Origin: Candidatus Accumulibacter necessarius
GTDB lineage: Bacteria > Pseudomonadota > Gammaproteobacteria > Burkholderiales > Rhodocyclaceae
Assembly (NCBI GenBank): GCA_017302435.1
Contig: JAFLDL010000036.1
Coordinates: forward strand, 1 to 49,047
Reading direction: 5' to 3'
Length of the DNA stretch: 49,047 bases
Of the stretch, positions 1,857 to 33,105 are shown piece after piece (the stretch's first letter is position 1; each line of letters opens with the position of its first letter). The notes beneath the pieces are model-generated. The model searched no databases. It saw only the letters and a program-made list of their open reading frames with translations, and had not been told where the DNA came from. The position numbers and the translations under genes were made by a program.

Positions 1857-3146
1857 CTATTCGAAACTCTCGTACTGTACGCGACTGGCCGGGATTCCGA
1901 GTTGGCTTGCCGCCGCTCGGGCAGCCTCGATCAAGCGACCAGGACCACAGACGTAAAACAGCGCGCTTGGCGGGGCCGACGCCAATGTCGCTTGAAGATC
2001 AAGGCGGGTTCCGCCCGGCGTACGCGTGAAATACAGGTGCAAGTGCCCGGGAAACTCGATCGCCAGCTGGTCCCGGTAGGCCATTTCGGCGGCAGTCCTG
2101 CCGCTGTAGTGGAATTCGAATGAACTGCCCCGCGCCTTGAGGGCCTGGGCCATGGCCCTGATAGGCGTGATCCCTATGCCGCCGGCGACCAGCACGGCGT
2201 GACGATCATCATTATGGAGCGGGAAGTGATTGACCGGAGGCTCCAGTGCGAGCCGGGTCCCGATCTGCCATGTGGCGTGGATGGCAGCAGACCCGCCGCG
2301 TCCGGCTTCCTCGCGCAGGACGGCAATCTCGTACATGTCTCGCCGCTGCGGATGCGAGGCCAGCGAATACTGTCGGGTGACTTGCGAGCCGTCAGCCAGC
2401 CGCACCGGCACGGCGAGATGCGCGCCCGCGGTGACGGGCGGCAGGTCGCTCCAGTCGAGTGCCCGCAGTTGATAGGCTCGCACGCGCGGTGTCATCTGGC
2501 ACATGCCGGTGACGACAAGCTTGAGCGCGCCGCTGCCGATTTCTGCGACGGTTGTGGCGGCGCTCTCGACGTGTCCGACTTCCGGCTTCCAGTCGTTGGC
2601 ACGGTCACGGACTTCCCGCTCGGTGAAGCGCGGCGTGATGTATTTCGGGCAATTCCAGTCGAATGCCTCCACCGTAATGATCACAGCGCGTTCGACACGC
2701 GCCCGATAGTCGGGCAACTCAACGCTGGCAACGAGGGCCGGCTCCTTGTCTTCGTCAACCAGTCGTGCCCGGCCCCAGATCTTGAGCCGCCGCTGGCCGG
2801 GATAGTCCATCAGGAACAGGCTGACCCGGTCATCTCCGTCGAGGTTGCCGACCGAGATGTACTGACGGTTGCCGGTGAAATCGGCATAGCCGATCGTCTG
2901 CGGACCCAGGACCTTCAGGAAGCCGGTGGGACCACCGCGGTGCTGGACGTAAGGCCAGCCGTTCTGGCCTACGGTGCCCTGGTAAAAGCTGTCACGAGCC
3001 CCGATGAATTCGACTTCGTAGGGGCCAAGTTCGACCACTTCGGCATCACCCAATTCAGCCGTGCGGTAGGCGTCGCGACTGCCCATCCGCACTTGCGCCG
3101 CTTGAACGTTCGGGGTGAAGGCTATCTTGGCAAAGGCACGGGCCAT
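1857..3146 (-). CDS. Flavo-reductase: PNPOx-like FMN domain fused to FAD/NAD(P) reductase domain
   Basis: This is a 429-aa two-domain protein. Residues 1 to about 190 resemble the pyridoxamine-5'-phosphate-oxidase/FMN-binding split barrel. Residues about 200-429 are a ferredoxin-reductase-type module with the flavin motif RQYSLAS (258-264), the nucleotide-binding segment AGGIGITPIR (321-330) and YVCGPGRLI (398-406). Related proteins often carry a C-terminal 2Fe-2S ferredoxin domain; here the chain stops at VQYESFE, immediately before where that domain would begin. The start at 3146 is preceded by AAAGGAG at good spacing. The gene lies 50 bases downstream of the AhpD-like gene on the same strand and is probably in its operon. 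The substrate cannot be read from the sequence; a role in electron transfer or detoxification is inferred. Confidence 0.85.
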   Translation of the reverse strand: MARAFAKIAFTPNVQAAQVRMGSRDAYRTAELGDAEVVELGPYEVEFIGARDSFYQGTVGQNGWPYVQHRGGPTGFLKVLGPQTIGYADFTGNRQYISVGNLDGDDRVSLFLMDYPGQRRLKIWGRARLVDEDKEPALVASVELPDYRARVERAVIITVEAFDWNCPKYITPRFTEREVRDRANDWKPEVGHVESAATTVAEIGSGALKLVVTGMCQMTPRVRAYQLRALDWSDLPPVTAGAHLAVPVRLADGSQVTRQYSLASHPQRRDMYEIAVLREEAGRGGSAAIHATWQIGTRLALEPPVNHFPLHNDDRHAVLVAGGIGITPIRAMAQALKARGSSFEFHYSGRTAAEMAYRDQLAIEFPGHLHLYFTRTPGGTRLDLQATLASAPPSALFYVCGPGRLIEAARAAASQLGIPASRVQYESFE

Positions 3147-3196
3147 GAGGAATCTCCTTTCTGCCGGGGGCATCGCCCCGGGATCGGGCTAAGGAA

Positions 3197-3742
3197 TCAG
3201 GCGGCAAGCTTCAATTCGACTTTCGGAAAGTCGATGTCGACGCGCCCGGCCTTGCCCAGCAGGTTGGTCAGGATGTTCATACCGACGTGGGTAATGACTT
3301 CGACAATGTCGGATTCGCTGTATCCGGCCGTGCGCATTTCCAGCAGTTCGGCGGTGGTGACTTCGCCCATGTGGGCAACCAGGGAGCGGGCAAACCTGAC
3401 GGCGACTGCCGCCTTTTCATCCCGGCTGGTGCCGGAGCGGTTGGCTTCGACCTCGGCGCCGTCAAGGCCCGCCTTGCGGCCGATCGCCGTGTGCGCCGAC
3501 AGGCAGTACTCGCAACTGTTCTGCTGGGCCAGGGCAAGGGCGATGCGTTCGCGCGTCTGCGGGTCGAGCGAACCGTCGCTTGCGATGCCATGCAGGCCCA
3601 GGAAGGCCTTGAGGGCGGCCGGCGAGTTGGCAAAGACCTTGAGGAAGTTGGGCACCATGCCAAGCTGGGCATGGATGGCGTCGTAAAGGGCCTGCTGTTC
3701 CGGATTGGCCGATTCGGCGGTAACGATGTTGATGCGTGCCAT
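3197..3742 (-). CDS. Carboxymuconolactone decarboxylase/AhpD-like protein
   Basis: This 181-aa all-alpha protein has the AhpD-type redox motif CEYC at residues 77-80 followed by His84 (CEYCLSAH). In this family the two cysteines and the histidine support peroxidase or thiol-disulfide chemistry. The C-terminal helices (DIVEVITHVGMNILTN) are typical of the CMD fold. The ATG at 3742 is preceded by AGGAG, whereas an upstream in-frame ATG lacks a site. It is the first gene of a two-gene unit with the flavo-reductase and is divergent from a LysR-family regulator, the usual arrangement when the regulator controls its neighbour. Peroxide or quinone stress defence is plausible but inferred. Confidence 0.87.
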   Translation of the reverse strand: MARINIVTAESANPEQQALYDAIHAQLGMVPNFLKVFANSPAALKAFLGLHGIASDGSLDPQTRERIALALAQQNSCEYCLSAHTAIGRKAGLDGAEVEANRSGTSRDEKAAVAVRFARSLVAHMGEVTTAELLEMRTAGYSESDIVEVITHVGMNILTNLLGKAGRVDIDFPKVELKLAA

Positions 3743-3867
3743 GATGTTTCTCCTGTTTGGGGTTGGGTGTGACGACGTGGTGTCGACGGTTGCCAATTTA
3801 CGGAATTCCCCGCAGAAGAAGAATAGCTATAGAATGCAATTCACTGTTTCATTGACAGGAATAATCT

Positions 3868-4767
3868 GTGGATCGATTCCATCTCATGATGGTGTTTGTT
3901 GCCGTGGCGGAAGAGGAGGGCTTTGCGGTCGCGGCGCGGCGGCTGCGCATGTCCCCACCGGCCGTGACCCGGGCCATTGCCGTCCTTGAGGAACGACTGG
4001 GCGTGCGGCTGCTCACACGCACCACGCGTCTGGTGAGGACCACCGATGCCGGCGCCCGCTACCTGGAGGACGCGCGCCGCATCCTGCTCGAGGCCGACGA
4101 GGCAGACGAAGCGGCGGCCGGCGTCAATGCCACGCCGCGCGGACATCTTGCGGTCACAGCGCCGGTGCTGTTCGGGAGGATCTACGTAATGCCCGTGATC
4201 ACGGCTTACCAGATGACATACAAGGAAACCACGGTGTCAGCGCTGTTCATCGATCGCCTGGTCAACCTGGTGGAGGAAGGTCTTGATGTCGGTATCCGCA
4301 TTGGCCCGTTGCCCGATTCTTCGCTGCGGGCAATTCGCGTCGGCCAGGTGCGTCGTGTCGTCTGCGCATCACCGGCCTACCTGAAGGCGTACGGCAGCCC
4401 CACCTCTCCTGCGGACCTTGCGCGGCATTCGATCATTGCCGCCACATCGGTGTCTGCCGGTTCGGAATGGGCGTTCGCCAAGGGGAAAGAAAGGATCGGC
4501 GTCCGGCTAAGTCCACGCATTCTGGTGAATACCAATGACGGCGCGCTCGAAGCCGCCAAGAGCGGGTTTGGCCTGACACGGCTGCTGTCGTATCAGGTGG
4601 CGAACGAACTGGCAGCAGGCGCGCTACAGACGGTGCTGACGGAGTTTGAAGAGGCTTCGCTGCCGGTCCACGTGATTAATCGCGAAGGTCGCCACGGATC
4701 AGCCAAAGTCCGGAGCTTTGTCGATCTGGCCGTCGAAAAGCTCAGGGCACATACGGCATTGCGGTGA
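3868..4767 (+). CDS. LysR-family transcriptional regulator
   Basis: This 299-aa protein has an N-terminal winged HTH (residues 1-60, with the typical AARRLRMSPPAVTRAIAVLEERLGV pattern split by the recognition helix) and a substrate-binding domain from about residue 90 to the end. It starts at GTG 3868, with AGGA 8 bases upstream. It is divergent from the AhpD-like gene across 125 bases containing the AT-rich palindromic stretch ATAGCTAT, where a LysR box would be expected. It probably controls the divergent AhpD/flavo-reductase unit. The effector is unknown; the closest named groups are the AaeR/DsdC-like LTTRs with short linkers. Confidence 0.9.
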   Translation: MDRFHLMMVFVAVAEEEGFAVAARRLRMSPPAVTRAIAVLEERLGVRLLTRTTRLVRTTDAGARYLEDARRILLEADEADEAAAGVNATPRGHLAVTAPVLFGRIYVMPVITAYQMTYKETTVSALFIDRLVNLVEEGLDVGIRIGPLPDSSLRAIRVGQVRRVVCASPAYLKAYGSPTSPADLARHSIIAATSVSAGSEWAFAKGKERIGVRLSPRILVNTNDGALEAAKSGFGLTRLLSYQVANELAAGALQTVLTEFEEASLPVHVINREGRHGSAKVRSFVDLAVEKLRAHTALR

Positions 4768-4812: not shown

Positions 4813-6288
4813 TCACAGCGTCTTCAGATACTCCACCAGAGCCTCCTTCTCGGCCGCCGATAACTGGCTGCCGAACTCGTGTCCCTGGTTGCCACCGCCC
4901 TTGCTGCCGGTGTCCAGCCGGGTACCGATGCGCTGCGCCTCCGGGGTGTCGCTGACAAAGCCGACCTTGATCGGGTCGTACAGGTCGTAGCCACGCCAGA
5001 ACACCGTCGGGCGAGCAGCTGCGGGTTCGAGCAGGTCGCGCAGCGTCGGCACCGAGCCGTTGTGCAGGTAGGGGGCCTTGAGCCAGATGCCATCCAGGAA
5101 GGGAACGATATAGCCTTGCAGGTCTTCCTCGACCAGACCGCGGCGTTCGAGGCCCATCTCCTTGACGACCTGATTGGCCTTGATCGCGGCGCCCTTATTC
5201 CACGAATCAAGGCGGCCGCGGTCGGTGCCGACGTCAGCCAGCGGCAGCGGCCGGCCAGTCAGTTCACTGGCATGGCAAGCCGCGCAGTTGGCTGCGAACA
5301 GCGCTTTGCCGGTCTCTGCCCTGGCGGCGTCGATCGGGAACGGATACTTCGGCGGCGGCAACTCCGAGAGGTAGCCGTGCAGCCACTTGACCTGGCCGAC
5401 GAAGTCCTCCTTGCTGGCCGGTGCAGCGCCGAGCAGGCCGAGAGCGGAATCCATGATCACCGAGTAGGCGTCGTGACTGTCGCCGGCGTAATTCATGCGG
5501 TGTCCCCGGTCCCAGACGTACTTCTTGAGGTTCCACAGCGACGGCATGTCGGTGGGACCGAAGGTGTCGTCCATCGGGGCGCGGATCATGAAGTACTTGG
5601 TAAGGTTCATGGCGTCGTCGCGGCCGCGGCCCCAGTCCGGGAAATCCGGGCGGTAGATCCAGGCGAACTGTGTTTCGCGCTCGAGCAGGCGCTTCTTGGT
5701 GATCGGAATGATCAGGAAGCGGTAGAGCAGCTTGTCGATCAGGTCGAGCTCGGTGACACGGTTGATTTCGGCCATCAGGATGTCGGCGTTGAAGCGTGGA
5801 TCCTTGGCGCAGTCGATCAGATAGCGGAAGAAGCCCTCGACGTTGGTGGTGTGCGCAGGGCCACCGACGACGAGCACCGGGTTGGCTTCGGACGACACGC
5901 GGTAGCTGGTGGTGTGGCAGACCGCGCAGTTGTTGGCGACGCGCGGGAAGCCGATGGTCTTCTTGGTGAAGCCCACCGGCAACTCCTGGCCTTGCTCCCA
6001 CGGCACGCCCAGGGCAGCGTAGCCGCCGGGAATGACCTTGCCGTCCTGGGTCAGCTTTTCGGGAAAGATTCGCGGCAGTACGTAGAAAATCCAGTAGGGC
6101 ACGCCGGCGTCGTGCTCGGCGCCGATTGAGCCGTACTTGAAGCGCATTTCCGGCGTGGCGGTCACCCAGTCGGGCTGCGGATGTTCACGGAAACCGCGCT
6201 GGTAGCCGATGATCGCGCCGACGATGCCGACCACGATGACGACGATGGCGATGACACTGAACCAGGTCTTGCGGGAAGCGTAGCTCAT
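4813..6288 (-). CDS. Membrane-anchored RoxA-like diheme c-type cytochrome (paralogue 2)
   Basis: This 491-aa protein has an uncleaved-looking N-terminal membrane segment (residues 9-28), so it should face the periplasm. Two haem c attachment sites are present: CAVCH (121-125) and CAACH (335-339). The C-terminal motif KAPYLHNGSVP (404-414), followed by RPTVFWRGYDLYDP, is characteristic of the RoxA/RoxB rubber-oxygenase-like and MauG-related diheme proteins. It is shorter than RoxA (about 680 aa). It is the last gene of a five-gene operon, 10 bases after its paralogue, with a GAGGA site before the ATG. Haem-based oxygenation, peroxidase activity or electron transfer are all possible. Rubber cleavage is not supported: RoxA itself is secreted, not anchored. 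Confidence 0.85.
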   Translation of the reverse strand: MSYASRKTWFSVIAIVVIVVGIVGAIIGYQRGFREHPQPDWVTATPEMRFKYGSIGAEHDAGVPYWIFYVLPRIFPEKLTQDGKVIPGGYAALGVPWEQGQELPVGFTKKTIGFPRVANNCAVCHTTSYRVSSEANPVLVVGGPAHTTNVEGFFRYLIDCAKDPRFNADILMAEINRVTELDLIDKLLYRFLIIPITKKRLLERETQFAWIYRPDFPDWGRGRDDAMNLTKYFMIRAPMDDTFGPTDMPSLWNLKKYVWDRGHRMNYAGDSHDAYSVIMDSALGLLGAAPASKEDFVGQVKWLHGYLSELPPPKYPFPIDAARAETGKALFAANCAACHASELTGRPLPLADVGTDRGRLDSWNKGAAIKANQVVKEMGLERRGLVEEDLQGYIVPFLDGIWLKAPYLHNGSVPTLRDLLEPAAARPTVFWRGYDLYDPIKVGFVSDTPEAQRIGTRLDTGSKGGGNQGHEFGSQLSAAEKEALVEYLKTL

Positions 6289-6298
6289 GATCCGGTCC

Positions 6299-7816
6299 TC
6301 AGAAGGTCTTCAGGAATTCGAGCAGGGCAGTCTTTTCCGCGGCGCTGAGTTCGGTACCGTAGGACTTGCCTTCGTGCCCGACGTTGGCGTTGCCGGGTAA
6401 GGCGGTGTCGAAGCGGAAGAAGTGGCGACCACCGGCTTCGGCCTGATCAGAAACGAAGCCGACCTGGACCGGGTCGTAGACGTCGTTGCCGCGATAAAAG
6501 GTGGCGGGCCGGCTCGCCGCCGGCTCGAGCAGGGCACGCAGGCTGGGCACCGAGCCGTTGTGCAGGTAGGGCGCCCGCAGCCAGAGGCCGTCGAGCGGCA
6601 GGTTGGCGTAACCGTGGGTCTTCTGGAAATGCGTGAAGCGCCAGGGGTAGCCGGCGTACAGCGTGGCCTGGTTCACCGCCAGGGTATGGGTGTAGGAATC
6701 GAGCCGACGGCGGTCGGTGCCGATTTCGTCCAGCGGCGTGACCTGGCCGACGTACTCACCGCTGAAATCGCTGCCGGATGCGCCGTGGCAGGCAGCGCAG
6801 TATTCCTGGTAGATCGGGGCACCACTTGCCGCCAGTTTCTCGTCGATCGGGAAGAACTGGCCGAAGGCCGGCGGCGTGACATCCATGATCCACGCCTCGA
6901 CGCGAGCGATACGCGCGAGGTCGATCGTCGGCGGCGTCGTGCCGGTGCCGAAGGCGGCGCTCTTGTTGCGCTCTTCGACGGTGGTGTTGTTGCCATCCCA
7001 GTGCAGCTGCATCTCGCGCGGCTCTTTGCGCTGACGCTGGCGCCAGAGCGAGGGAAAATCGGCTGGGGCGTCGAATTCCTTCGGGTCGAGGTGGGCCATC
7101 GGGAAGTTGAAGATGACCTTTGCCGAGTTGAAAGTGTCGACCCGCCCAGGACCCCACTCGTGCTGATCGAAGACCCACTGGAAGCGCCCGGCCAGCGCGA
7201 GTACACGGTCACGCATGATGGCGATCGCCAGCGGGTAGACCAGATAGCGGTCGAGCAGATCGAGTTCGCCACCCTGGCGCTCGATTTCGGGCAGGATGTA
7301 TTCCTTGGCGAATTTTGGATCGGCGGCGCAGCGGAAGAAGAACTCCTCGAAGCCCTTCATGTTGAAGGTGGCAGCCGGCATGCCGAGGACGATCGTCGGC
7401 GGCTGCCCGGCAGCAGTGCGCACCGTACTGGTGTGGCAGACGGCGCAGTTGACGAAGACGCGGTCGATGCCCTGGTAGCGCCGCTGTGAGGTGCCGATCG
7501 GCAGATCGCGGTCGCTGCCGTCGGCATTCCTTTCGTAGACCATGCCCAGCGACTGGTAGCCCTTGCCGGGCAGGTACTGTGGGCAGACTGCCGGCAGGAC
7601 GCGCCAGATCCAGTAAGGGAATCCCATTTCGTGTTCGCCGCCGGTCGAGCCATACTTGAAGTGCTCGACCGGGCTGTCATAGTCGACCGGCACGTCGCCG
7701 CCGAAACGTATCGCCAGCCACCCCACAAGGATGACCGGGATGGCCACGATGACCAGGAGCAGGAGCAGGAAGCGCCGCTTCCAGCGGCTTTCCGTCGGGG
7801 TTTGCACGTCATTCAT
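6299..7816 (-). CDS. Membrane-anchored RoxA-like diheme c-type cytochrome (paralogue 1)
   Basis: This 505-aa paralogue of the downstream gene shares the same layout: N-terminal membrane anchor (about residues 15-37), CAVCH (124-128), CAACH (340-344), and APYLHNGSVP (415-424) followed by RPATFYRGNDVYDP. Shared short stretches such as KYGS-GEHxxGxPYWI near residue 55 and the ending LSAAEK-ALLEFLKTF point to an old tandem duplication. The start at 7816 is preceded by AAGGAGG; an in-frame ATG further upstream overlaps the gap region and has no site. It lies 22 bases after the 724-aa diheme gene. It probably forms a periplasm-facing complex with the other operon products (inference). Confidence 0.85.
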   Translation of the reverse strand: MNDVQTPTESRWKRRFLLLLLVIVAIPVILVGWLAIRFGGDVPVDYDSPVEHFKYGSTGGEHEMGFPYWIWRVLPAVCPQYLPGKGYQSLGMVYERNADGSDRDLPIGTSQRRYQGIDRVFVNCAVCHTSTVRTAAGQPPTIVLGMPAATFNMKGFEEFFFRCAADPKFAKEYILPEIERQGGELDLLDRYLVYPLAIAIMRDRVLALAGRFQWVFDQHEWGPGRVDTFNSAKVIFNFPMAHLDPKEFDAPADFPSLWRQRQRKEPREMQLHWDGNNTTVEERNKSAAFGTGTTPPTIDLARIARVEAWIMDVTPPAFGQFFPIDEKLAASGAPIYQEYCAACHGASGSDFSGEYVGQVTPLDEIGTDRRRLDSYTHTLAVNQATLYAGYPWRFTHFQKTHGYANLPLDGLWLRAPYLHNGSVPSLRALLEPAASRPATFYRGNDVYDPVQVGFVSDQAEAGGRHFFRFDTALPGNANVGHEGKSYGTELSAAEKTALLEFLKTF

Positions 7817-7838
7817 GGGATTTCCCTCCTTGGCTGAT

Positions 7839-10013
7839 TCATTGCGGCGGGAGACAGGGTCGCAAGGCTTCATAGCCCGCGCTCAGCAGCGACTTGAGCT
7901 GCGGACGCTGACCGGTTTCGGCGCGCAACCAGCCCTCCACCTGCGCCAGCAGCGCCGCCCGCAGCGGGCTGCTGCGCCAGGCTTGCGCGCTGCTGGCGAA
8001 AGCCGGCAACACACTTTCCGGTGGCATCGGCGTCTTTTCGCGCTGTTCGGGGGCCACATCGGCCATCGCCAGACGCACGTATAGCCGCGGCGCACAGTGG
8101 CGCAGTCGGGCGACCACTTCGGCCGGGCTGCCCTGGAGAAAATTCGGCGGGAAAGTCTCGGCTGTCTGGTGACAGGCGGCGCAGTAGGGCTGGAAGCTGC
8201 GCTGCGCCGTGTCATTGGCAGCCGCCGGCGGCATTGCGGCGGCGGCTGGCTCAGCGGGGGCGACGGCGGGTACTTCGAGCTGCGGTGGCGGCAGGGCGCG
8301 CGCAGCCTGGCAGCAGCCTGTGCCGCCGCGCGCACCGGCAATGCCCAACTCGCCGAACAGCGCCGCGAAGAGCGGCTCGCGCGGGAAGGGTGCCGGTGCG
8401 AAAAGCGCCGCCGCCTGCGGCCCGCTGACCAGGCGGTCGACGGCCTGCTGGACGATGGCGAAATCCTGGCGGACTTCGATCATGACCTCGCCGTGATCGT
8501 TGCCGGCAGGGCGCCGGACCTCAATGACGGCGATGGCGTTGCCAGCAGCGGTGCGCGCTGCACGGCCGTCCACAAGCGGCTGCAGTTTCATCACGGCAGG
8601 CGTCGCGTGGCCGGCGGGGCGCAGTCTGGCGGCGTTCAACGCCGTACCGTCGGCCAGCGTCAGTCGCGTCAAATCGCCATCAACGAGTCGCCCGGCCTGC
8701 CAGGCGAGCGTTCCTTCGAGCAGCGTGCCGACGGGCGCGACGCAGCGCAGCGAGGCGCGCGACGCTGTGCTACTCGCCGCGAAGCGACAGGGCGCCGTGA
8801 CGCGCACGACCGGCACCGTCGCCGGCCGCGCCAGCACCGCGTCGAGCTGGGCGAGGTCAGTGGCGGCGACAAACTCGCTGAGTCCGGCGAGTAGCTTGCG
8901 CATCGCGTCGGGCGCATCGGCCCGCCAGACTTCGCGTGATGGTCGTGGCAGCAGCGGGTCGAAAAGCACGGCGACGTGCGAAAAGCCTACTCGGGCGGCG
9001 CTGTCAGCCGGCCAGTGGCGCATGCCCTGCAGGGGATTGCGGTTGGCGATGTCGGGATTGCCGATCGCCAGCCCGCCGGGCCAGCGACGGCGAGCTTCGG
9101 CGCGCAGCGGCGCGGCCACCGCCTGCTCGAAGTCCGCATCGGCTGTCCAGCTCTGGCCACCGGCAAGCGCGTGGCGCAGGGTGGCGGCGAACAGACCGGC
9201 GCGGCAGCGATGGGCGGTGACATCGTTGCCGCCGCAACCTTCTAGCCACAGCCGCTGGGTCAGCGCGAAGCCGTTTGCCCGCTCGCTGGCGTTGTCGATG
9301 GCGTAAGGGACGTCGACCCCACGCTCGACAGGGATGCCGTAGAACCGGCGGCCGCTGGCGAGCAACAAGGCAGCGACCTGCGGATTGGCGTTGCTTTCGT
9401 CCCACAGCGCGCGCGAGAAGATCGGCGCACCATTCTGGTGGCAGGCGAAGCAGAGCGTGCGGGGAGCGTAAACCACCTTCGGCTTGCCGCCCGCCCGGTA
9501 GTCCTTGACCAACTGGAACTCGAAGCGACCGGCTGCCTCGTTGTAACTGATGACTTCGAGCACCGCTGACTTTTCCTGATAGCCCAAGTAGAGGCGATCC
9601 TTGAGCAGCGGCGCGCCGGCCGCCGGCGATGCGTCGACGGCGACGACCACCCGCGGGTAGGCAAAGTAGTCGGGCGCGGCAGCGGTCCGCTGCAGGGAGC
9701 GACCGAGCGGGATCAGCACGCGCTTCGCCGGTGGCAGCGGGCTGGTCGGCTCGCGCTGCAGTTGCCCATCGAGCCTGGCGAGCAGGGACTCGAACGGGAA
9801 CGGCAGTTCGATTTCCGCCTGCCCGCCGCGCTGCACGGCGAATACCTGATCGAACAGCGAGCGCCCGACGCCGGGCAGGTTCTCACCGGGTAGTGCGGGG
9901 TCAACCACCCAGGTCGGCGCCGGGGCCCCAGCCGCCTGGGCATGGCTTGCCGGGCCGCAGGTGAAACCGAGCAGCAGCGCCGGCAGGAGCAGCAGAACCC
10001 GGGACCGGCTCAT
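7839..10013 (-). CDS. Exported diheme c-type cytochrome, 724 aa, unknown family
   Basis: A signal peptide (residues 1 to about 27, cleavage near SHAQA-AG) directs this 724-aa protein to the periplasm. It has two CXXCH sites far apart: CFACH (188-192) in the context HQNGAPIF, and CAACH (611-615) after an Ala/Pro-rich linker (about 575-602). The region between, about 400 residues, has no motif I recognise and contains extra cysteines (for example 260, 270, 409, 424 and a CC pair at 567-568). The C-terminal part looks like a separate small cytochrome domain. It lies within the cytochrome operon, 37 bases after the lipoprotein gene. The ribosome binding site is weak (GAAAG), which fits coupling to the upstream gene. 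The function is unknown. Confidence 0.82.
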   Translation of the reverse strand: MSRSRVLLLLPALLLGFTCGPASHAQAAGAPAPTWVVDPALPGENLPGVGRSLFDQVFAVQRGGQAEIELPFPFESLLARLDGQLQREPTSPLPPAKRVLIPLGRSLQRTAAAPDYFAYPRVVVAVDASPAAGAPLLKDRLYLGYQEKSAVLEVISYNEAAGRFEFQLVKDYRAGGKPKVVYAPRTLCFACHQNGAPIFSRALWDESNANPQVAALLLASGRRFYGIPVERGVDVPYAIDNASERANGFALTQRLWLEGCGGNDVTAHRCRAGLFAATLRHALAGGQSWTADADFEQAVAAPLRAEARRRWPGGLAIGNPDIANRNPLQGMRHWPADSAARVGFSHVAVLFDPLLPRPSREVWRADAPDAMRKLLAGLSEFVAATDLAQLDAVLARPATVPVVRVTAPCRFAASSTASRASLRCVAPVGTLLEGTLAWQAGRLVDGDLTRLTLADGTALNAARLRPAGHATPAVMKLQPLVDGRAARTAAGNAIAVIEVRRPAGNDHGEVMIEVRQDFAIVQQAVDRLVSGPQAAALFAPAPFPREPLFAALFGELGIAGARGGTGCCQAARALPPPQLEVPAVAPAEPAAAAMPPAAANDTAQRSFQPYCAACHQTAETFPPNFLQGSPAEVVARLRHCAPRLYVRLAMADVAPEQREKTPMPPESVLPAFASSAQAWRSSPLRAALLAQVEGWLRAETGQRPQLKSLLSAGYEALRPCLPPQ

Positions 10014-10050
10014 CGGGGACTTTCATTGCCGGCCGGCCACCACGCACCGA

Positions 10051-10941
10051 TCAGGAAGCCGCGGCCGCGAGTGTCCGCGTTTGCGTCCCTGGCCAGCATT
10101 CTTCCTGCACCTTGCCGGTCTTGACGAAATCTTCCCTCGCTTTATCGTCGGTGGCCTTGTCGTAGAGCGTGAAATTGAGGGCAAAACCGCGGTCCAGATA
10201 GGCACGGCCAAGGTAGAAACCCGGCCGGATCATGCGAATCTCGTCGCGCACGCGCAGGCCTCGGCGACCGGCGAGGTAATCCGGCTTTTCCTGGTAGCCG
10301 GCGATTTCATCGCTGAAGAAGTAGTCGATGATGACCGATTCCCGGCGGGCGTCGAGCAGACTCTGGCCACAGTACAGTTTGGCAGGGAACAGTAGCCAGG
10401 TCTCCTTGCCGCCGTAACTCATCTTCTTCGGCTCGCCTTCAACCAGGCCGGCCTTCTTCAGCAGCGACAGATCCTCGATGCGATTGCGCAACACCCGCTC
10501 GTCACGAAAGAAGACCTTGCCCCGCCAGAGGGTTTCGCCCACTTCCTCGATCACCAGCCCCTTGAGGTGCAGCGCCGTACCGGTGAAGCCGCCGACGATT
10601 TCGGACAGCCGGAACTTGCCGCTCTCGCCGCGCGGCAACAGGATGCGGCCATCGAAGGCGCCGTCGGGGATCGGCCCGGCAGTCAGGCGGGCGTAGAGCT
10701 GGTCGAGCTGCTCCTGGTCGAGCTTCGCCAGGTAGTCGGGAGTGATTTTCGCCAGTTCGGCCGCTGCGATCGGGTATTTGTAATCCACCTGTGCCAGGTC
10801 CATCTTCGACTGGTGGCTCTTGTCGTAGGGTGCGAAGCCGATTTTCGGTGGCTCCGGCTTGCCGCACGCGGCCAGGGTGAGGGCGAGAGCGGCGGGGACC
10901 AGGGCACCGGTGCGCAGTAGAGAAATCTTGGGCAGTCTCAT
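10051..10941 (-). CDS. Predicted lipoprotein in the cytochrome operon
   Basis: This 296-aa protein begins with a lipoprotein signal: a basic start, a hydrophobic run, and the lipobox LTLAAC with Cys at about residue 26. It therefore should be lipid-anchored in the periplasm. There is no CXXCH, so it is the only operon member without haem. The body is soluble and charged (for example the DQEQLDQLYARL segment and repeated DYLAK/DYLAG stretches). I recognise no domain. CGGAGA precedes the ATG. It sits between two diheme cytochromes with gaps of 19 and 37 bases, which suggests an assembly, docking or substrate-binding role in the same complex (inference). Confidence 0.78.
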   Translation of the reverse strand: MRLPKISLLRTGALVPAALALTLAACGKPEPPKIGFAPYDKSHQSKMDLAQVDYKYPIAAAELAKITPDYLAKLDQEQLDQLYARLTAGPIPDGAFDGRILLPRGESGKFRLSEIVGGFTGTALHLKGLVIEEVGETLWRGKVFFRDERVLRNRIEDLSLLKKAGLVEGEPKKMSYGGKETWLLFPAKLYCGQSLLDARRESVIIDYFFSDEIAGYQEKPDYLAGRRGLRVRDEIRMIRPGFYLGRAYLDRGFALNFTLYDKATDDKAREDFVKTGKVQEECWPGTQTRTLAAAAS

Positions 10942-10960
10942 GTCTATTCTCCGGGTGGCC

Positions 10961-13573
10961 TTAGAGCGTGGCGAGGAAGGCCGTCAGCGCCTTCTTGTCC
11001 GCTGCGGAAAGATCCTCGCCAAAACGATGGCCCTCGTTCTCGATCTCCTGCGTGCAGGTCTGGTAGTTGGCGCTGATGAAGTCGCGCCGCTCGCGCAGGA
11101 TGTCGACGAAACGCGAGGGCTGCTTGAGGATCTCGTCGGCCATCGCCTGCAGCACGGGCACCTGATCCTTTTTGCCGACCGATTCGAGTTTCGCCGGATC
11201 CCGCTTGGCGAGAAACAGATCGCCGACCAGTTGCTTGTGCGTCAACCCGTTGAGGAAGCCGGCGCTGGTACCCGCCGGGACCTTCACCTGGCCGAAGCCG
11301 AACAGTGGCTTTTCGGTCTTGCCGTCAAGCGGCCGCACGCCGACGTCGATCAGCAGGTCGGCGTTGGTCAGCGTGCGCTTGAAGCCCCTTTCCTTCGGGT
11401 GCAGCAGCTCGAACATCGAACGCTTGTAGAGCTCGAAGCGTCCCTCGACGCTCGGGTCGTAGCGCAGGCAGTCGGGTTGTTGATCGAGCGGCTTGCCGCT
11501 GGCGTCGACATAGCGGGCGCGGTGGAAGTCGTTGGCCTTGTTGGCCGGCTTGCCGCAGATTTCGGGACCGATGGCATTGTTGTGCATGAACGGCGCTGTC
11601 GCCCAGACATTGACCAGCGAGATGTTGCGGTAATAGCCGCGACCGCCGTCCTTGAGCTCGTTACGTTCCGGGATGTCGGCGACCACCGGCTGCTTGCGCA
11701 GCGTGTCGGAAGCGTATTCCATGTACAGGTGGCCGGCCTTGTGATTCGAGTGCAACGCCCGGCAGCGGAAGGTGCCGACCTCGGTGACCGGTGTCGGCTG
11801 GTCGTTGCCGAGGAAATCGGCACGCACCTGGCGCGGGTGCTGCGGGTTGGCAGCCGCGAAGTCGCGGTTCCTGAACGCCCCGCCTTCGCTTTCCGGGATG
11901 CTCGAATGGCAACGCGCGCAGTTCTCCGCGAACACCGTTTGCCCGCGCGTGACAGCGCCTTTGCCGAACTCCTGTTCCAACTCGAAGACGAAATCGGCGC
12001 GGCTGTAGCTCGCGGCCGGACTCGCCGCCTGACGGGCCCTGGCCCGGGCGGCGGCGAGGTCGGTCTGGTCCGACTCGGCGGAGGCAAAGAAATCGAGCAG
12101 ATTCTGCAGGCGATCCTCGATGGCCCGGAAGTTCGGGCAATCACGCCGGCACTGCCCGATGTTGAATGGCGTCTGGCCAAAGCCGCGTTGCTCCGGGTCG
12201 ACCTGGCGCATGTCGGAGAAGTGATTGACCCAGCACTGCTCGGCGCACGAGCCGATGTTGAAGTAAACACGCTGGATCGCTTCGTGCGCGCCGATCGAAT
12301 CCTCGCCACCCTTGAGGATGCGGTGCACGCCGGGCAGCACGACTTTCTGGCCGCCGAGGTTGACGACCGTCGTGTCGTCCTCACGCGTGCTCTTCTGCCA
12401 GCACTTGCCGTTGCGGCCAGGTTCGCACCAGCACTTCTCCTCGTCCTTCTCGGCGCCACAGGAGCTGGCCTTGCGCCACTTGGTGACCATTTCGCTCTTG
12501 AATACGGGCCGCTGGGCCACGTTGATCAGGGCGTTGATCGTGCCCGGGTTGTTGATCTGGTCGTGCGAGATTGCCGAGGTGTCGGTGACACCCGGCCGGG
12601 CGTGGGCAAACATCTGGTATTCCAGGCTGCTGATCGGCATCCCCGACCCCAGCAGTTCCGACATGCGCGTGTACTGATTGCCGATCAGGCCCTTGATGTT
12701 CTCCCACTTCGGATGCGCCGGGTCAGCCGGCGGGTTGAGCGGATCAAAGGCGATATGGCAAGAGCCACAGGAGGTGCCAATCAGGAAGGGCGGCTCGACC
12801 GAGGCGTCGGCCAGCTTGCTCACTCGCTGATCCGATTCGATGCCGGTGGTCGCGGCCAACGTGCGGCTGTAGCCGGACCACGCCGCCGTGCCGCCGTTGA
12901 GCTGCGTCCACTTGGCGGCGTCAAAGCGCGGATTGGGAAACTTGCGAATGCCTAGCGCGCCGGTCGAGGTCCCGAACTTGAGATCGCAGGCCGAGTGTCG
13001 CTGGTCGGCCGTGCCACCCTGGCTATGCGGATCGTCGACGTCCAGCGTCGCATCCTTCAGACTACAGGCGGGATCGATGTAGCCCGGCTTGCCGACGTAC
13101 TTGAGCAGCACGTCGTCACCTGGGCACCAGTCGAAGCCGTAGGTTTCCTCGACCGAGCGGGCCGGGCAGTCGGGCTCGCCGGGCTTGCAGCACGCCGGAT
13201 CGTTGATGATTCCCCAGGCCCAGAAGCGATCATCGCGCTGGTCGGCCCGTAGAACGCGGAACCAGTCGACCAGGACGCCGATGCGCTGCTGGAAGGTGTA
13301 GGTATGGAAGCGGTCGTTACCGGCAGTGGCCTTGAACCAGATCAGCCGCCCGACGCACTCGGACTCGTTCAGTCCCTCGCGGGCACAGGCCTCGCGGTAG
13401 GGGGCATCCTGATCGACGCTGGACGCTTCGGGAAGCGGCTGCCCGGGCGGGGCGACGGCGGCAGCCGGCGCGCTCTGGGCGTAGGCGTCCCCGGCCGTTC
13501 GCTCGTGAAAGACGCCAATGCCGGCGCCAACCATGACCAACGCCGCCACTGCGGCAAGCAGAGCACGTTTCAT
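10961..13573 (-). CDS. Large exported Cys-rich diheme c-type cytochrome, 870 aa
   Basis: This is the first gene of the five-gene operon. An N-terminal signal peptide (about residues 1-32, ending AYAQS) is followed by a long periplasmic chain with CGSCH at 269-273 and CARCH at 552-556. The motif APFMHNNAIG (660-669) resembles APYLHNGSVP of the two RoxA-like members, so this may be a distant, enlarged relative. About twenty other cysteines lie outside the haem sites (for example CC at 128-129, CWC at 381-383, CAEQC at 443-447, C475/C479), suggesting several disulfides or another metal site. AGGAGG lies just upstream of the ATG. A TTGACA at 13617-13622 on this strand might be a -35, but I see no convincing -10. 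The function is unknown; a MauG/cytochrome-peroxidase-like redox enzyme is the nearest guess. Confidence 0.82.
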   Translation of the reverse strand: MKRALLAAVAALVMVGAGIGVFHERTAGDAYAQSAPAAAVAPPGQPLPEASSVDQDAPYREACAREGLNESECVGRLIWFKATAGNDRFHTYTFQQRIGVLVDWFRVLRADQRDDRFWAWGIINDPACCKPGEPDCPARSVEETYGFDWCPGDDVLLKYVGKPGYIDPACSLKDATLDVDDPHSQGGTADQRHSACDLKFGTSTGALGIRKFPNPRFDAAKWTQLNGGTAAWSGYSRTLAATTGIESDQRVSKLADASVEPPFLIGTSCGSCHIAFDPLNPPADPAHPKWENIKGLIGNQYTRMSELLGSGMPISSLEYQMFAHARPGVTDTSAISHDQINNPGTINALINVAQRPVFKSEMVTKWRKASSCGAEKDEEKCWCEPGRNGKCWQKSTREDDTTVVNLGGQKVVLPGVHRILKGGEDSIGAHEAIQRVYFNIGSCAEQCWVNHFSDMRQVDPEQRGFGQTPFNIGQCRRDCPNFRAIEDRLQNLLDFFASAESDQTDLAAARARARQAASPAASYSRADFVFELEQEFGKGAVTRGQTVFAENCARCHSSIPESEGGAFRNRDFAAANPQHPRQVRADFLGNDQPTPVTEVGTFRCRALHSNHKAGHLYMEYASDTLRKQPVVADIPERNELKDGGRGYYRNISLVNVWATAPFMHNNAIGPEICGKPANKANDFHRARYVDASGKPLDQQPDCLRYDPSVEGRFELYKRSMFELLHPKERGFKRTLTNADLLIDVGVRPLDGKTEKPLFGFGQVKVPAGTSAGFLNGLTHKQLVGDLFLAKRDPAKLESVGKKDQVPVLQAMADEILKQPSRFVDILRERRDFISANYQTCTQEIENEGHRFGEDLSAADKKALTAFLATL

Positions 13574-13909
13574 GTCTTCCCTCCTGATGTCCAGACACTT
13601 TGAGGCGCCGCGGTCTTGTCAATTCCTGTTTGCTCGCGCGGCCCTTCCCGGTGGCCACGTTAGCCTCGTGTTAATCAGAACCGGCTTGAACCGGCGCGGT
13701 TCCATAGAGTTGCCGAATGCGCGCCTCCGAAGACCATTCACCAGGTGAATGCGACGCTGGCTGCGGCGGGATGGCCGGAGGTCGCCTGTTTGCTGGCATC
13801 GATCGCGTGCGCACGCGTGCGGCCAACTGGCGGACACGACGTTTGCCGGGGCAGTCTTGCGCCTGCGGCATGCTAGAATCGCGCCCCGATCCAGCCCCGC
13901 CCGCCGGCG
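13574..13909. other. Divergent intergenic region between cytochrome operon and rep
   Basis: This 336-base gap separates the minus-strand cytochrome operon from the plus-strand rep gene and must carry both promoters. An extended -10-like element for rep is listed separately. On the operon side only a TTGACA hexamer and a strong AGGAGG site are visible. I see no convincing gene in it. Confidence 0.6.
13871..13879 (+). promoter_or_regulatory. Possible extended -10 promoter element of rep
   Basis: TGCTAGAAT combines an extended -10 TG with a TATAAT-like hexamer (TAGAAT), 31 bases before the rep ATG. No good -35 is seen 17 bases upstream, which an extended -10 promoter can tolerate. Confidence 0.4.
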
Positions 13910-15904
13910 ATGTCCGCGATATCCGTGCTGAACCCCCCGCAACGTGAAGCGATCCGCTACCTCGACGGACCCCTGCTGGTCCTCGCCGGTGCCGGCTCGG
14001 GCAAGACGCGCGTGATCACCGAGAAGATCGTGTACCTGATCGAGTCCTGTGGCTTCCGCCCGAGCAATATCGCAGCGATCACCTTCACCAACAAGGCGGC
14101 GCGCGAAATGCAGGCGCGGGTGAGCAGGCTACTTGCTGGCAAACCTTCACAAGGCCTGACAATCTCGACCTTTCACGCGCTCGGGGTGCGTATCCTGCGC
14201 GAGGAGGCCGACAGCGTCGGCTACAAGCCCGGCTTTTCGATCCTTGACTCGACCGACTGCTTCGGGATCGTTTCGGAACTCGCCGGCAGCGCCGACAAGG
14301 CCACCATACGCAGGCTGCAGTGGCTGATCTCGAACTGGAAGAGCGCCCTCGTCTCACCGGACGAAGCGCGGAAGAATGCGCAGAACGACAGCGAGGCTCT
14401 CGCCGCCAATGCTTTCGACAGTTATGCGGCGACTCTGAAGGCGTACCAGGCGGTCGACTTTGACGATCTGATCGCGATTCCCGTGGCGCTCTTCGAAAGC
14501 CAGCCGGCCATCCGCGATAAATGGCAGAACCGCCTGCGCTATCTGCTGATCGATGAATACCAGGATACCAATGTCAGCCAGTACCAGTTGCTCAGGCTCC
14601 TGGCCGGCCCGCGCGCCGCGTTCACCGCCGTCGGCGATGACGATCAGGCAATCTATGGCTGGCGCGGCGCCGATATCGCCAATCTGCGCGGACTGCCGCG
14701 CGACTACCCGAACCTCAAGGTGATCAAGCTCGAACAGAACTACCGCTCGACGATCCGCATCCTCAAGGCGGCCAACGCCCTGATCTCGCACAACGAAAAG
14801 CTGTTCGACAAGAAGCTCTGGTCAGAGTTGGGCCACGGTGATCCGATCACCGTCCACACCTGCCCGGACAAGGAGAAGGAGGCCGAGGCGGTGGTCATGA
14901 AGCTGCAGGCACACCGCTTCGAGCATCAGGGAAAATTCCGGGATTATGCGATCCTCTATCGCGGCAATTTCCAGGCGCGCGCGATCGAGCAGTTCCTGCG
15001 CAACCAGCGCATTCCCTATCTCTTATCCGGCGGGCAGTCCTTCTTCGAAAAGGCTGAGATCAAGGACATCACTTCCTACCTCCGCCTGCTGGCAAACAAC
15101 GACGATGACCCGGCTTTCATCCGTGCTGTCAATACGCCCCGGCGAGGCGTCGGTACCGGCACGTTGCAGGCGCTGGGCACCTATGCCGGCGAACGCCAGA
15201 TTTCGCTCTTCGCTGCCGCCTTCGAGCAGGGCTTCGCAGCGCGCGTCCAGACACGCCAACTCACCCCCCTGCTCGAGTTCTGCGAGTTCGTCAAACGACT
15301 GCAAGCGCGCGCCGGCAGAGAACCGGCAGCACAGGTGATGGCCGATCTGCTCACCGCCATCGCTTACGAGCCCTGGTTGTACGATCAGGACGAAGCGCGG
15401 ACAGCCCGGATCAAGTGGGGAAACGTTCAGGAGTTCTGCGACTGGTTGAGCCGCAAGGGCGAGGAGGAGCAGAAGACCTTGATCGACCTCACCCAGACCA
15501 TTGCCCTGATCAACATGCTCGACCGGGAGGATAGCGAGGTCGACGCCGTGCAACTGTCGACGCTGCACGCCGCCAAGGGACTGGAGTTCAAACACGTCTT
15601 CCTGATCGGCGTCGAGGAAGGCGTGCTGCCACACCGAGAAGCGCAGACTGATGGCCGCATCGAAGAGGAGCGTCGCCTGATGTACGTCGGCATCACCCGT
15701 GCGCAGCGCTCGCTGCACCTGAGCTACGCGGAGAAGCGTCAGCAGGGTCGCGAAGTGATCCCCTGCGAGGCGTCGCGCTTCATTGCCGAGATGGGTAGCG
15801 ATGACCTGCGCTTCTCTGGCGGCAGGGCAGAGAGCCCGCCGGACAGGGCGATCAATGCCGATCGCTTTTCTGCTCTCAAGGCGATGCTTGGCAAGGTGAA
15901 GTAA
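13910..15904 (+). CDS. rep: ATP-dependent DNA helicase Rep
   Basis: This 664-aa superfamily 1A helicase carries the Walker A motif GAGSGKT (27-33), motif Ia TFTNKAA, the DEYQDTN Walker B, motif III GDDDQAIYGWRGA, motif IV QNYRS, motif V STLHAAKGLEF and motif VI YVGITRAQ. Its length and lack of an extended C-terminal RNAP-binding domain fit Rep rather than UvrD. Rep unwinds DNA 3' to 5', restarts forks and clears proteins ahead of the replisome. It starts at the ATG at 13910; the upstream promoter element is weak. It is a stand-alone gene with no terminator seen directly after it. Confidence 0.95.
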   Translation: MSAISVLNPPQREAIRYLDGPLLVLAGAGSGKTRVITEKIVYLIESCGFRPSNIAAITFTNKAAREMQARVSRLLAGKPSQGLTISTFHALGVRILREEADSVGYKPGFSILDSTDCFGIVSELAGSADKATIRRLQWLISNWKSALVSPDEARKNAQNDSEALAANAFDSYAATLKAYQAVDFDDLIAIPVALFESQPAIRDKWQNRLRYLLIDEYQDTNVSQYQLLRLLAGPRAAFTAVGDDDQAIYGWRGADIANLRGLPRDYPNLKVIKLEQNYRSTIRILKAANALISHNEKLFDKKLWSELGHGDPITVHTCPDKEKEAEAVVMKLQAHRFEHQGKFRDYAILYRGNFQARAIEQFLRNQRIPYLLSGGQSFFEKAEIKDITSYLRLLANNDDDPAFIRAVNTPRRGVGTGTLQALGTYAGERQISLFAAAFEQGFAARVQTRQLTPLLEFCEFVKRLQARAGREPAAQVMADLLTAIAYEPWLYDQDEARTARIKWGNVQEFCDWLSRKGEEEQKTLIDLTQTIALINMLDREDSEVDAVQLSTLHAAKGLEFKHVFLIGVEEGVLPHREAQTDGRIEEERRLMYVGITRAQRSLHLSYAEKRQQGREVIPCEASRFIAEMGSDDLRFSGGRAESPPDRAINADRFSALKAMLGKVK

Positions 15905-16514: not shown

Positions 16515-16961
16515 CTACTTGGCGAGGCCGACCAGGTGCTCCACCGCAGCCTTGATCTCGGCATCGGTCAGGTCGGCACCGCCGCCCTTGGGCGGCATCG
16601 CCCCCTTGCCATTGGTCACGCTGTTGATCAGCGCCGCGGTGCCGGTGGCAATACGCGGCGCCCAGGCCACCTTGTCACCCGCTTTCGGCGCACCCGCGGC
16701 GCCACTCGCGTGGCAGGCCATGCACACCGAGTTATAGACTGTCGCGCCGTCACGCGGCTTGCCATCCGACTTCGCCGCTGGCGCCTTGGCCAGTTCCAGC
16801 CTGGCGACCGGCTGAATGCGAGCTTCCGCCTCATCAGTACTGCCGGTCTTGACGCTGCCTTTGCCGAGCATCGAAAGCGGCCAGATGACAACGATCAGGA
16901 CGATTGCGATGACGATGGTGATCATCAGTGTCATCCGCGAAGAGTTTTGCTGTTGAGCCAT
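16515..16961 (-). CDS. Cytochrome c5-family protein, membrane-anchored
   Basis: This 148-aa protein has an N-terminal membrane segment (residues 10-31), a charged linker, and a single haem site CMACH in the c5 context (YNSVCMACHASGAAGAPK). The distal methionine is probably in GAMPPKGG. The C-terminus (LTDAEIKAAVEHLVGL) is the usual last helix of class I cytochromes. It should shuttle electrons in the periplasm, for example to a terminal oxidase. AAGGAC lies upstream of the ATG. The gene is monocistronic and shares a terminator with the convergent gene. Confidence 0.9.
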   Translation of the reverse strand: MAQQQNSSRMTLMITIVIAIVLIVVIWPLSMLGKGSVKTGSTDEAEARIQPVARLELAKAPAAKSDGKPRDGATVYNSVCMACHASGAAGAPKAGDKVAWAPRIATGTAALINSVTNGKGAMPPKGGGADLTDAEIKAAVEHLVGLAK

Positions 16962-17076
16962 ACCAAGTCCTTGATGGTGAACGGGTTAAGTAACGAATTG
17001 TACCGCCGTTTCGCAGCGCTCAAAAGCACCGGGGTGGACTACCCCGAGCAAACCGGTTAAGCTTCGCTCCCTGCAC

Positions 17077-17153
17077 GCGCCCGTAGCTCAGTTGGATAGA
17101 GTACTGCCCTCCGAAGGCAGGGGTCGGACGTTCGAATCGTCTCGGGCGTGCCA
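17077..17153 (+). tRNA. tRNA-Arg (anticodon CCG)
   Basis: The cloverleaf is complete. The acceptor stem is GCGCCCG with CGGGCGT. The anticodon stem CTGCC/GGCAG encloses loop CTCCGAA (anticodon CCG). The T stem GGACG/CGTCT holds TTCGAAT. Discriminator G is followed by an encoded CCA. The 3' end of the opposite-strand GNAT gene overlaps it. Confidence 0.95.
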
Positions 17154-32447: not shown

Positions 32448-32460
32448 GATTGAGTTCGAT

Positions 32461-33042
32461 CTAGAAAGGAATGTCGTCTTCAAAGTCGCCAAAGCTGGAC
32501 TTGACTTCGGGCTTATCGGCTGGCTTTGCGTCTACCCATGTGGGTAACGTATCCCGTGACGCCTCACCGCGCGCGACCGCACAAAAGTCATCCCAGCGTT
32601 CCCGCAGGCGGTCAAAGCACAAGGAGTCTTCTTCCAAACGCCACGTCCACTTACCACTGTTCTTGTTTGAGTTGCCTTTCCATAGATAGCCGTTCTCGCG
32701 AATGAGCTTCCACCGCTTCTGCTCTTCGTGGCTCAGTAAATCTGGGTAGCTCAACGCAAGTTTCGCAAAACGGTCGGCATCATCAACGTCCCACAGCTTT
32801 GCCGCAACATCGGCAACGGATGTTCCAGGATCGTTACCGTATCCACCCTCCTGGAGATATACCCGACCAAGACTGTCTTCAATCGCCCATTCGATAAAGC
32901 TCGATACGGTTCGCCGCTGCTTGAGCGCGGCAAGTTCCGCCAGATAGCGGAGCTTCGGGTCCAGCCGAACCGTCACCGTCTCGGTCCGGGTCAATTTCCC
33001 GCCGCCGCCCTTGCGCTTGCTTTCCGGATTTTCGGTTGCCAT
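32461..33042 (-). CDS. Ribbon-helix-helix-like DNA-binding protein with SSB-like acidic C-terminus
   Basis: This 193-aa protein starts with a Lys/Gly-rich tail, then ETVTVRLDPKLRYLAELAALKQRRTVSSFIEWAIEDSL (residues 21-58, in pieces), the beta-strand plus two-helix pattern of ribbon-helix-helix repressors. Residues 90-160 are Trp- and charge-rich and unrecognised. It ends GDFEDDIPF, nearly identical to the last residues of bacterial SSB, the tail that recruits replication and repair proteins. It lies upstream of and is probably co-transcribed with the integrase, and is divergent from the replication module, so it may regulate both. The SSB-mimic idea is inference. Confidence 0.75.
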   Translation of the reverse strand: MATENPESKRKGGGGKLTRTETVTVRLDPKLRYLAELAALKQRRTVSSFIEWAIEDSLGRVYLQEGGYGNDPGTSVADVAAKLWDVDDADRFAKLALSYPDLLSHEEQKRWKLIRENGYLWKGNSNKNSGKWTWRLEEDSLCFDRLRERWDDFCAVARGEASRDTLPTWVDAKPADKPEVKSSFGDFEDDIPF

Positions 33043-33105
33043 GTCATGTCCTTTCGTTCAAAGATTCCATTTGGTTCCAGTAAAGACTAACATTACAATA
33101 GTTCT

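Follow-up and report, generated by a model that had tools for sequence, protein, structure and literature searches.

Five adjacent minus-strand genes of Candidatus Accumulibacter necessarius encode four proteins with two c-type haem sites each and one lipoprotein. They lie at positions 4,813 to 13,573 of a 49,047-nucleotide stretch (contig JAFLDL010000036.1 of GenBank assembly GCA_017302435.1), called the window here. The genes, labelled A to E in order of transcription, are a real co-inherited unit. We put at about 50% the probability that this unit is a c-haem pathway in which unsaturated fatty acids or similar lipids are oxygenated beyond the inner membrane by an oxylipin-type chemistry. 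That estimate follows from two observations: genes beside distant relatives of the cassette form a lipid-oxidation theme, and the nearest known enzymes are PA2077 and PA2078 of Pseudomonas aeruginosa. The substrate, the chemistry, the direction of electron flow and any physical association of the proteins are what we infer within this reading. None of the five genes could be assigned to a characterised pathway by the searches made, and the five-gene set was not found in the open-access literature among the matches listed (judged by title and start of abstract), in keeping with the initial annotation, which knew of no described system with this set.

A five-gene unit inherited together

Gene A (10961..13573, 870 residues) is followed by B (10051..10941, 296 residues), C (7839..10013, 724 residues), D (6299..7816, 505 residues counted from an inner ATG) and E (4813..6288, 491 residues), all on the minus strand and with intergenic gaps of 19, 37, 22 and 10 bp; the open reading frame coordinates thus bear out the tight arrangement (gaps of 10-37 bp) first described. 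A longer frame for D, reaching up to 7873, is also present, but translation probably begins at the inner ATG, because 17 of 57 orthologous D frames have a stop inside the N-terminal extension. The operon has a GC content of 66%, against 61-62% in the flanks on both sides. The presumed promoter region (13574..13909) is placed by position only, between gene A and a divergent gene at 13910: no sigma-70-like site was found in it, the promoter scan gave 1 promoter-like site against 0.7 in shuffles, and the terminator scan gave 5 terminator-like sites against 7.0 in shuffles.

The eight CXXCH motifs of the cassette are divided evenly among A (residues 269 and 552), C (188 and 611), D (124 and 340 from the inner ATG, or 143 and 359 in the longer frame) and E (121 and 335). 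Both motifs are kept in nearly all orthologue frames taken as complete (A 78/79, C 56/58, D 56/56, E 61/61), and CXXCH is absent from gene B and from 77/77 of its orthologues. At the N-termini, D and E begin with 19 residues of marked hydrophobicity (mean hydropathy 3.1 and 3.0), A and C have signal-peptide-like stretches (judged without a dedicated signal-peptide predictor), and B has the lipobox LTLAAC. Motif counts and lipobox confirm the four dihaem proteins and one lipoprotein of the initial annotation, and these N-termini agree with its prediction that all five products are exported or membrane-anchored.

Relatives were sought by scanning peptide patterns of A over the GTDB species collection. 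This gave 121 confirmed relatives, most of the records examined being metagenome bins; the analysis retained the best 80 of them, which biases the set towards close relatives. The order A-B-C-D-E on one strand is found in 63 of the 80 loci, and a further 15 are interrupted by a contig end and are consistent with that order as far as visible, so the shared order is not due to chance. Two loci deviate: L066 (loci are numbered with the prefix L, genomes with G) has A-B-C with D-E absent from 9.6 kb, and L081, from Bryobacteraceae (Acidobacteriota), has D-E placed ahead of A-B-C. In L068 the order is kept but 2.8 kb separates A from B. By record title, the 63 ordered loci belong to Pseudomonadota, mainly Rhodocyclales (Accumulibacter, Dechloromonas, Zoogloea, Aromatoleum), the remainder being other Beta-, Gamma- and Alphaproteobacteria; two Nitrospira contigs end after B or C.

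Among 61 related genomes, gene A occurs in 20 (15 of 28 in the genus, 0 of 9 in other genera of the family, 5 of 24 in the rest of the order), gene B in 19, gene C in 21 (one merely a 63-residue fragment) and gene E, by long matches, in 18 (23 when five genomes with only fragments or short stretches are counted). The genomes with B are those with A, the sole exception being G039 with its distant A-C pair; in G050, A, B and C are present and a long D or E match is lacking. This presence pattern marks the cassette as an accessory trait, mostly gained or lost as a block. No sixth gene of equal spread was found in flanks of up to 10 kb: in crude open reading frame clusters, of which the 45 largest were considered, none beyond the five occurs in more than 16 of the 80 loci or in more than 4 divergent loci.

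Co-occurrence in other genomes, on which the initial annotation had made its proposal depend, therefore held, with order kept and the B set matching the A set but for one genome. Its suggestion that the five proteins form one periplasmic redox complex is a conjecture, and the parts are modular: D, E and A occur without B or C in Rhizobium (L095), A and C in L099 and L100, and A-B-C without D-E in L066 and G050. A is the subunit present in most of the variants seen.

Some copies call for separate mention. In L074, a Chromatiales bin, the A frame (9875-12316) and the E frame (16883-18337) of an otherwise complete five-gene locus have one in-frame stop each, from assembly error, decay or frame choice. 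Second E-like genes are present in the same genus (G009:C20, G019:C8 and G001:C57:13846-15255), on other contigs or more than 50 kb from the operon. L063 and L064 are two contigs of one Muproteobacteria bin with A on each, either two copies or a mixed bin, and G052 has a second A-like place.

Relationships of the five proteins

Pfam and NCBIfam name only D and E among the five. Both pass the 150-bit cut-off of NF040606, "di-heme-cytochrome C peroxidase" (D 197.8 bits in the longer frame, E 174.6); A (33.1 bits) and C (no hit) stand outside, and the family's name is an annotation. The profiles of D and E match RoxA (4b2n) in colinear pieces with E-values of 1.2e-16 and 1.5e-16. Residue conservation was read from hand-picked rows (27 for A, 26 for C, 19 for D, 21 for E), mostly deduplicated complete orthologues, after excluding rows with an in-frame stop (C of L080, A and E of L074, D of L003). 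Equivalents of RoxA H195, H394, H517 and H641 are found in 19/19 D and 21/21 E, and in A by motif position. We take H394 and H641 to be haem ligands; H195 and H517 are described as haem histidines in the consulted part of PMC6311187. RoxA, RoxB and RoxC thus share with D, E and A a superfamily, two haems, the haem histidines, a C-terminal domain and the MauG-type motif PYxHNGSVP, which is present in D and E. By these features D and E are RoxA-superfamily dihaem paralogues, predicted to be membrane-anchored.

The two differ from RoxA, and from each other, in the distal pocket. In RoxA this is formed by F301, W302 and F317 and is described, in the consulted parts of two papers (PMC6797691, PMC6311187), as having no acid-base residues. 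The corresponding residues are H272-W273-F289 in D (conserved in 19/19, 19/19 and 18/19 rows) and N266, Y267 and L283 in E (Asn in 20/21, a variable residue that is Trp in 5/21, and Leu in 21/21). D-like proteins of Rhizobium, Sinorhizobium and Qingshengfaniella keep the His-Trp pair and have Leu or Ile at the F317 position. In a 36-row tree, D and E together with their Rhizobium relatives make two groups (support 100/99), which implies that the paralogue pair is old and that both partners have been kept; the Qingshengfaniella protein falls weakly with D (87/56), and proteins of Paracoccus, Methylobacterium and Rhizobium sp. WL3 are long branches outside. As for other dihaem families, a MauG-type or classical bacterial cytochrome c peroxidase was rejected for A, C, D and E, with no Pfam match to those families up to E 0.1; nor did any cassette protein match a MauG or MbnH family above cut-off in Pfam or NCBIfam.

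PA2077 and PA2078 are, as far as we have read, the nearest small-substrate enzymes of known function in the RoxA superfamily. They are the oleate-diol synthase pair of P. aeruginosa and belong to the FadCcp subfamily: PA2077 is a 10S-dioxygenase, and the two, which also carry the MauG-type motif, act in the periplasm as fatty-acid dioxygenase and diol synthase (PMC4496055, seen in part). Like D and E, they are described there as RoxA-related periplasmic dihaem tandem paralogues; D-E shows the FadCcp trait of an exported tandem dihaem pair with PYxHNGSVP, its location being predicted. The division between the partners is also similar. PA2077 has W302 and F317 equivalents (W251 and F269; PMC4496055, Table 1), as do 18/19 D, and PA2078 has lost W302 (S243 in the same table), as have 16/21 E. 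There are differences: PA2077 and PA2078 are longer (634 and 624 residues against 505 and 491), E has Leu rather than Phe at the F317 position, and the consulted part of PMC4496055 mentions no A, B or C partners, all three of which the cassette has. These comparisons follow the published description. As a mark of the rubber oxygenases W302 alone is not decisive, because RoxC-type entries of a review table lack it too (V294; PMC6311187, consulted part).

Gene A appears to be an exported dihaem protein and a distant member of the RoxA superfamily. Its profile is colinear with RoxA 4b2n at E 0.009, a cbb3 oxidase subunit ranking first at E 0.006, and hhalign aligns the A and D profiles with 97.6% probability over part of the C-terminal half. 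H273, H556, H664 and H849 are invariant in 27/27 rows, and the protein has 24 cysteines.

The RoxA/MauG-type label that the initial annotation gave to the dihaem proteins stands for A, D and E as regards the RoxA superfamily and fails for C, a different dihaem protein that matched no named family in Pfam or NCBIfam. C was tried as a RoxA-type enzyme and rejected, the A and D profiles aligning with it over 16-17 residues only, round the second CXXCH. H192, H615 and M663 are invariant in 26/26 rows; M663 sits where the methionine of a class I cytochrome c could be, so the second haem is possibly His/Met-ligated (H615, M663). The structural model of C (mean predicted local distance difference test score, pLDDT, 86) has no significant PDB match. 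Between its haem sites lies an inserted barrel domain (about residues 402-515), an insert that spans 93-165 residues in 60 of 69 rows and 4-10 residues in the other 9, L099 and L100 included. It weakly resembles allene oxide cyclase, AbyU and dirigent barrels (probability 0.60-0.97, E 0.24-0.28).

Gene B probably encodes a haem-free lipoprotein, the longer form of an unnamed family of shorter proteins (about 147-194 residues, E 1e-21 to 5e-13) located in L096, L101, L102, L117 and L118. It has no Pfam match up to E 0.1, and in NCBIfam only a short sub-threshold match at the signal peptide. The lipobox pattern is found in 63/77 orthologues and its cysteine is kept in 35/37; two further cysteines are invariant, as are aromatics including W139 and W283. 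An AlphaFold model (pLDDT 85) predicts a barrel whose best Foldseek match, and the only one below 0.001, is 4mve (the Tcur_1030 protein of Thermomonospora, E 3.9e-4). A PDB sequence search with the B profile gave nothing useful, and allene oxide cyclase, considered as an identity for B, was absent from the 50 listed fold matches. A weak relative exists in Nocardia (profile E 3e-4, locus unannotated).

Neighbours of distant relatives and the proposed pathway

Profile searches of 397 Pseudomonadota genomes, the window's own included, found A in 8 and B in 4; in two of the eight (G325, G327) the match is confined to a cytochrome stretch of 41-43 residues. Within one order, 148 genomes were searched, with 3 matches. 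Of 14 control genomes only that of Thermus composti matched, below cut-off. Among plasmid records, 21 matched A and 65 matched the D type, and none matched B or C; seven regions were opened, covering 2 of the 21 A records.

A locus close to the cassette is on plasmid pRL11 of Rhizobium johnstonii and in Sinorhizobium fredii, where genes for an NADH:flavin oxidoreductase, a D-like protein, a 143-residue protein, an E-like protein, an A-like protein, a GMC flavoprotein and a patatin follow one another. D, E and A stand together as in the cassette, and the D-like and E-like proteins join the D and E groups. The locus differs in its order, in the absence of a C gene and, over the stretches fetched, of B, in a D-like protein with Leu at the F317 position, and in its extra flavoenzymes and phospholipase. 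Its genes are annotated as hypothetical, cytochrome c or membrane protein, and the Sinorhizobium patatin lies below the Pfam cut-off.

Other distant loci carry A with GMC and varied company: a short B, a 433-residue protein and, about 3 kb further, a catalase-related gene in L096, L117 and L118; a 318-residue protein and an alpha/beta hydrolase in L097; a divergent patatin and an alpha/beta hydrolase in L098. The GMC family (43-57% identity between lineages) adjoins A in 7 of 9 inspected distant A loci (L095, L096, L097, L098, L105, L117 and L118, not L099 or L100). GMC genes number 32 in 7 genomes totalling 27 Mb, or about 1 per 0.84 Mb, which gives roughly a 1% chance of one within 5 kb; the adjacency in four lineages is therefore well beyond chance. 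One patatin family lies directly upstream of A in four loci (L067, L068, L069 and L071). L098 has a member less than 0.5 kb from A, and in L106 a member neighbours a distant D/E-type gene, at a locus that also has a cytochrome P450; in Rhizobium a separate patatin gene follows A-GMC. Pfam supports the patatins of L071 (just above cut-off), L095 and L098, places those of L067 and L068 just below and does not match that of L069, while alignment unites L067-L069, L071 and L098 in one family. An alpha/beta hydrolase family is common to L097, L098 and L071, where it stands after E.

Relatives of B and of D extend the pattern. Of the 6 inspected loci with B relatives, 5 have a catalase-related gene nearby (L096, L101, L102, L117 and L118, not L103); L101 combines a short B with a catalase-related gene, a haem peroxidase and the 433-residue family, and L102 a short B with GMC, an alpha/beta hydrolase, the 433-residue family and a catalase-related gene. 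That unnamed family of about 433 residues recurs beside short B in all five loci, at 37-81% identity to the L096 member and with no Pfam match in L096 or L102. In L104 a D-like gene accompanies a flavin adenine dinucleotide (FAD) protein and an alpha/beta hydrolase; beyond the FAD gene, on the opposite strand and with two genes between it and the D-like gene, is a protein that matches plant fatty-acid alpha-dioxygenase (4kvj) over its full length at E 3.7e-109. A distant D/E-type gene in L107 is followed by a catalase-family gene (by annotation only) and a peroxidase-family gene (Pfam haem peroxidase). L099 and L100 have A, C and a one-CXXCH protein with no lipid genes recognised, and in L108 (Rhizobium sp. 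WL3) the distant D/E-type gene has unrelated neighbours. Taken together, the lipases, fatty-acid dioxygenase homologue, animal-type haem peroxidases, catalase-related genes, and GMC and other flavoproteins of these loci point to lipid oxidation.

On this basis a working model can be drawn. The lipid substrate would be presented by B, whose barrel is possibly lipid-binding, or drawn from the membrane. At the N-terminal haem, D, A or both would form or consume an oxygenated or hydroperoxy product, and E, with its different pocket, would perform a second step as PA2078 does after PA2077 in Pseudomonas. C might shuttle electrons between the respiratory chain and the haems of A, D and E. The patatin-like phospholipase that stands upstream in some lineages would free the fatty acid, and the GMC flavoprotein, likewise in some lineages, would oxidise the resulting alcohol. 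To judge by its pocket, D may equally well carry out a peroxidase or peroxygenase step or form a RoxA-like O2 adduct, and terpenoid or hydrocarbon substrates are possible.

Several observations weigh against lipid oxygenation. Among the 80 close relatives, the patatin query matched only 4, with a remote alpha/beta hydrolase in 3 more; the L097/L098-type hydrolase was found only in L071, which also has the patatin; and the GMC, catalase-related and haem-peroxidase queries matched none. The L067 patatin family was unmatched in the window's genome, in a search run without a positive control, and the window itself gives no clue to a substrate: the genes flanking the cassette there (LysR, AhpD-like, helicase) are not among the neighbours shared elsewhere. 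The distant loci represent few lineages and few of the A plasmid records; L099/L100 and L108 show no lipid theme, and neither of the plasmid records that carry L104 and L107 has a match to A, B or C. The catalase-related calls are weak (L101 below the Pfam cut-off, L107 with no Pfam match, coral allene oxide synthase at E 0.42). The B barrel rests on one structure, fatty-acid- and retinoid-binding barrels appearing at E 0.1 and worse, and a short B relative found no match in a PDB sequence search. Finally, D has His at the RoxA F301 position.

Alternatives, surroundings and implications

That histidine allows a peroxidase step in D, and reductive removal of lipid hydroperoxides is for this reason the main rival, unlikely as we judge it to be. 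Here D, E and A would reduce periplasmic lipid or organic hydroperoxides, C would supply electrons, B would bind peroxidised lipid and the patatin would excise damaged acyl chains. The invariant H272 is distal and stands beside Trp in a peroxidase-like manner where RoxA, whose pocket is described without acid-base catalysts (PMC6797691, consulted part), has Phe; the NCBIfam name of the D/E family, the invariant Met of C (which could make an electron-carrier haem) and the catalase-related neighbours at distant loci fit as well. However, the GMC, alpha-dioxygenase-like and haem-peroxidase neighbours suit synthesis more than repair, three enzymes and two accessory proteins seem excessive for peroxide removal, and the cassette occurs unevenly in a single genus (15 of 28 genomes).

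Cleavage of isoprenoids, terpenoids or hydrocarbons for carbon, in the style of the rubber oxygenases, is improbable. Membership of A, D and E in the RoxA superfamily, the W302 and (mostly) F317 equivalents of D, and some hosts whose names mark them as degraders (Aromatoleum and Zoogloea oleivorans among them) speak for it. Yet the RoxA, RoxB and RoxC cut-offs (1000, 900 and 900 bits) are missed more than tenfold by D and E, which reach 40-80 bits (best 79.9, E against RoxC), and the F301-W302-F317 pocket has become H-W-F in D and N-x-L in E, with F301 replaced by His in D and by Asn in 20/21 E. Unlike the rubber oxygenases, D and E look like a membrane-anchored pair within a five-gene cassette rather than secreted enzymes, and uptake or beta-oxidation genes are not among the widely conserved neighbours.

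MauG acts on its amine dehydrogenase and MbnH on MbnP, and the dihaem enzymes could by analogy oxidise residues of B. The PYxHNGSVP motif of D and E and the invariant aromatics of B fit such protein maturation, but we consider it more doubtful still: B relatives in L101 and L102 have no A, C, D or E match within 19 kb, A, D or E relatives in L095 and L097-L100 have no B match within 20 kb, and a MauG or MbnH family match above cut-off is lacking. A periplasmic electron conduit or respiratory branch with no lipid substrate would account for eight c haems over four co-inherited proteins but is the least probable, given the kinship to RoxA-type enzymes, the differing D and E pockets, and a porin or multihaem partner not being among the widely conserved neighbours.

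In the window, a LysR regulator gene (3868-4767, plus strand) flanks the cassette on the gene E side, and a UvrD/Rep-type helicase gene, named from sequence alone (13910-15904, plus strand), on the gene A side. Beyond LysR are a gene for an AhpD-like peroxidase-related protein (3197-3796, just below the TIGR01926 cut-off) and, adjoining it, a pyridoxamine-phosphate-oxidase/oxidoreductase-like gene (1857-3173). Further away, 31260-46944 holds a phage-type integrase, a DUF3987 protein and a candidate defence cluster (PLD/SNF2 helicase, PDC-S70-like protein, DUF1156 methyltransferase, DUF3780 and DUF499).

If the cassette does oxygenate lipids, it would be a further bacterial c-haem fatty-acid oxygenation system beside the Pseudomonas pair, whose oxylipins are described in the consulted parts of two papers as steering biofilm formation and cell-cell signalling (PMC5155153, PMC6377657). 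Its hosts are wastewater floc formers and soil and marine bacteria. B and C represent two protein families that match no named family here, and the cassette offers a concrete test of what the annotation of NF040606 as a "di-heme-cytochrome C peroxidase" means. More broadly, and only as a tentative possibility, the cassette may belong to an old, modular bacterial pathway of c-haem lipid oxygenation, in which up to three RoxA-type enzymes, an insert-barrel dihaem protein and a barrel lipoprotein have been reassorted with phospholipases, GMC flavoproteins and eukaryote-like fatty-acid dioxygenases, and whose products in Accumulibacter, Zoogloea and other bacteria that form flocs and biofilms would be lipid mediators.

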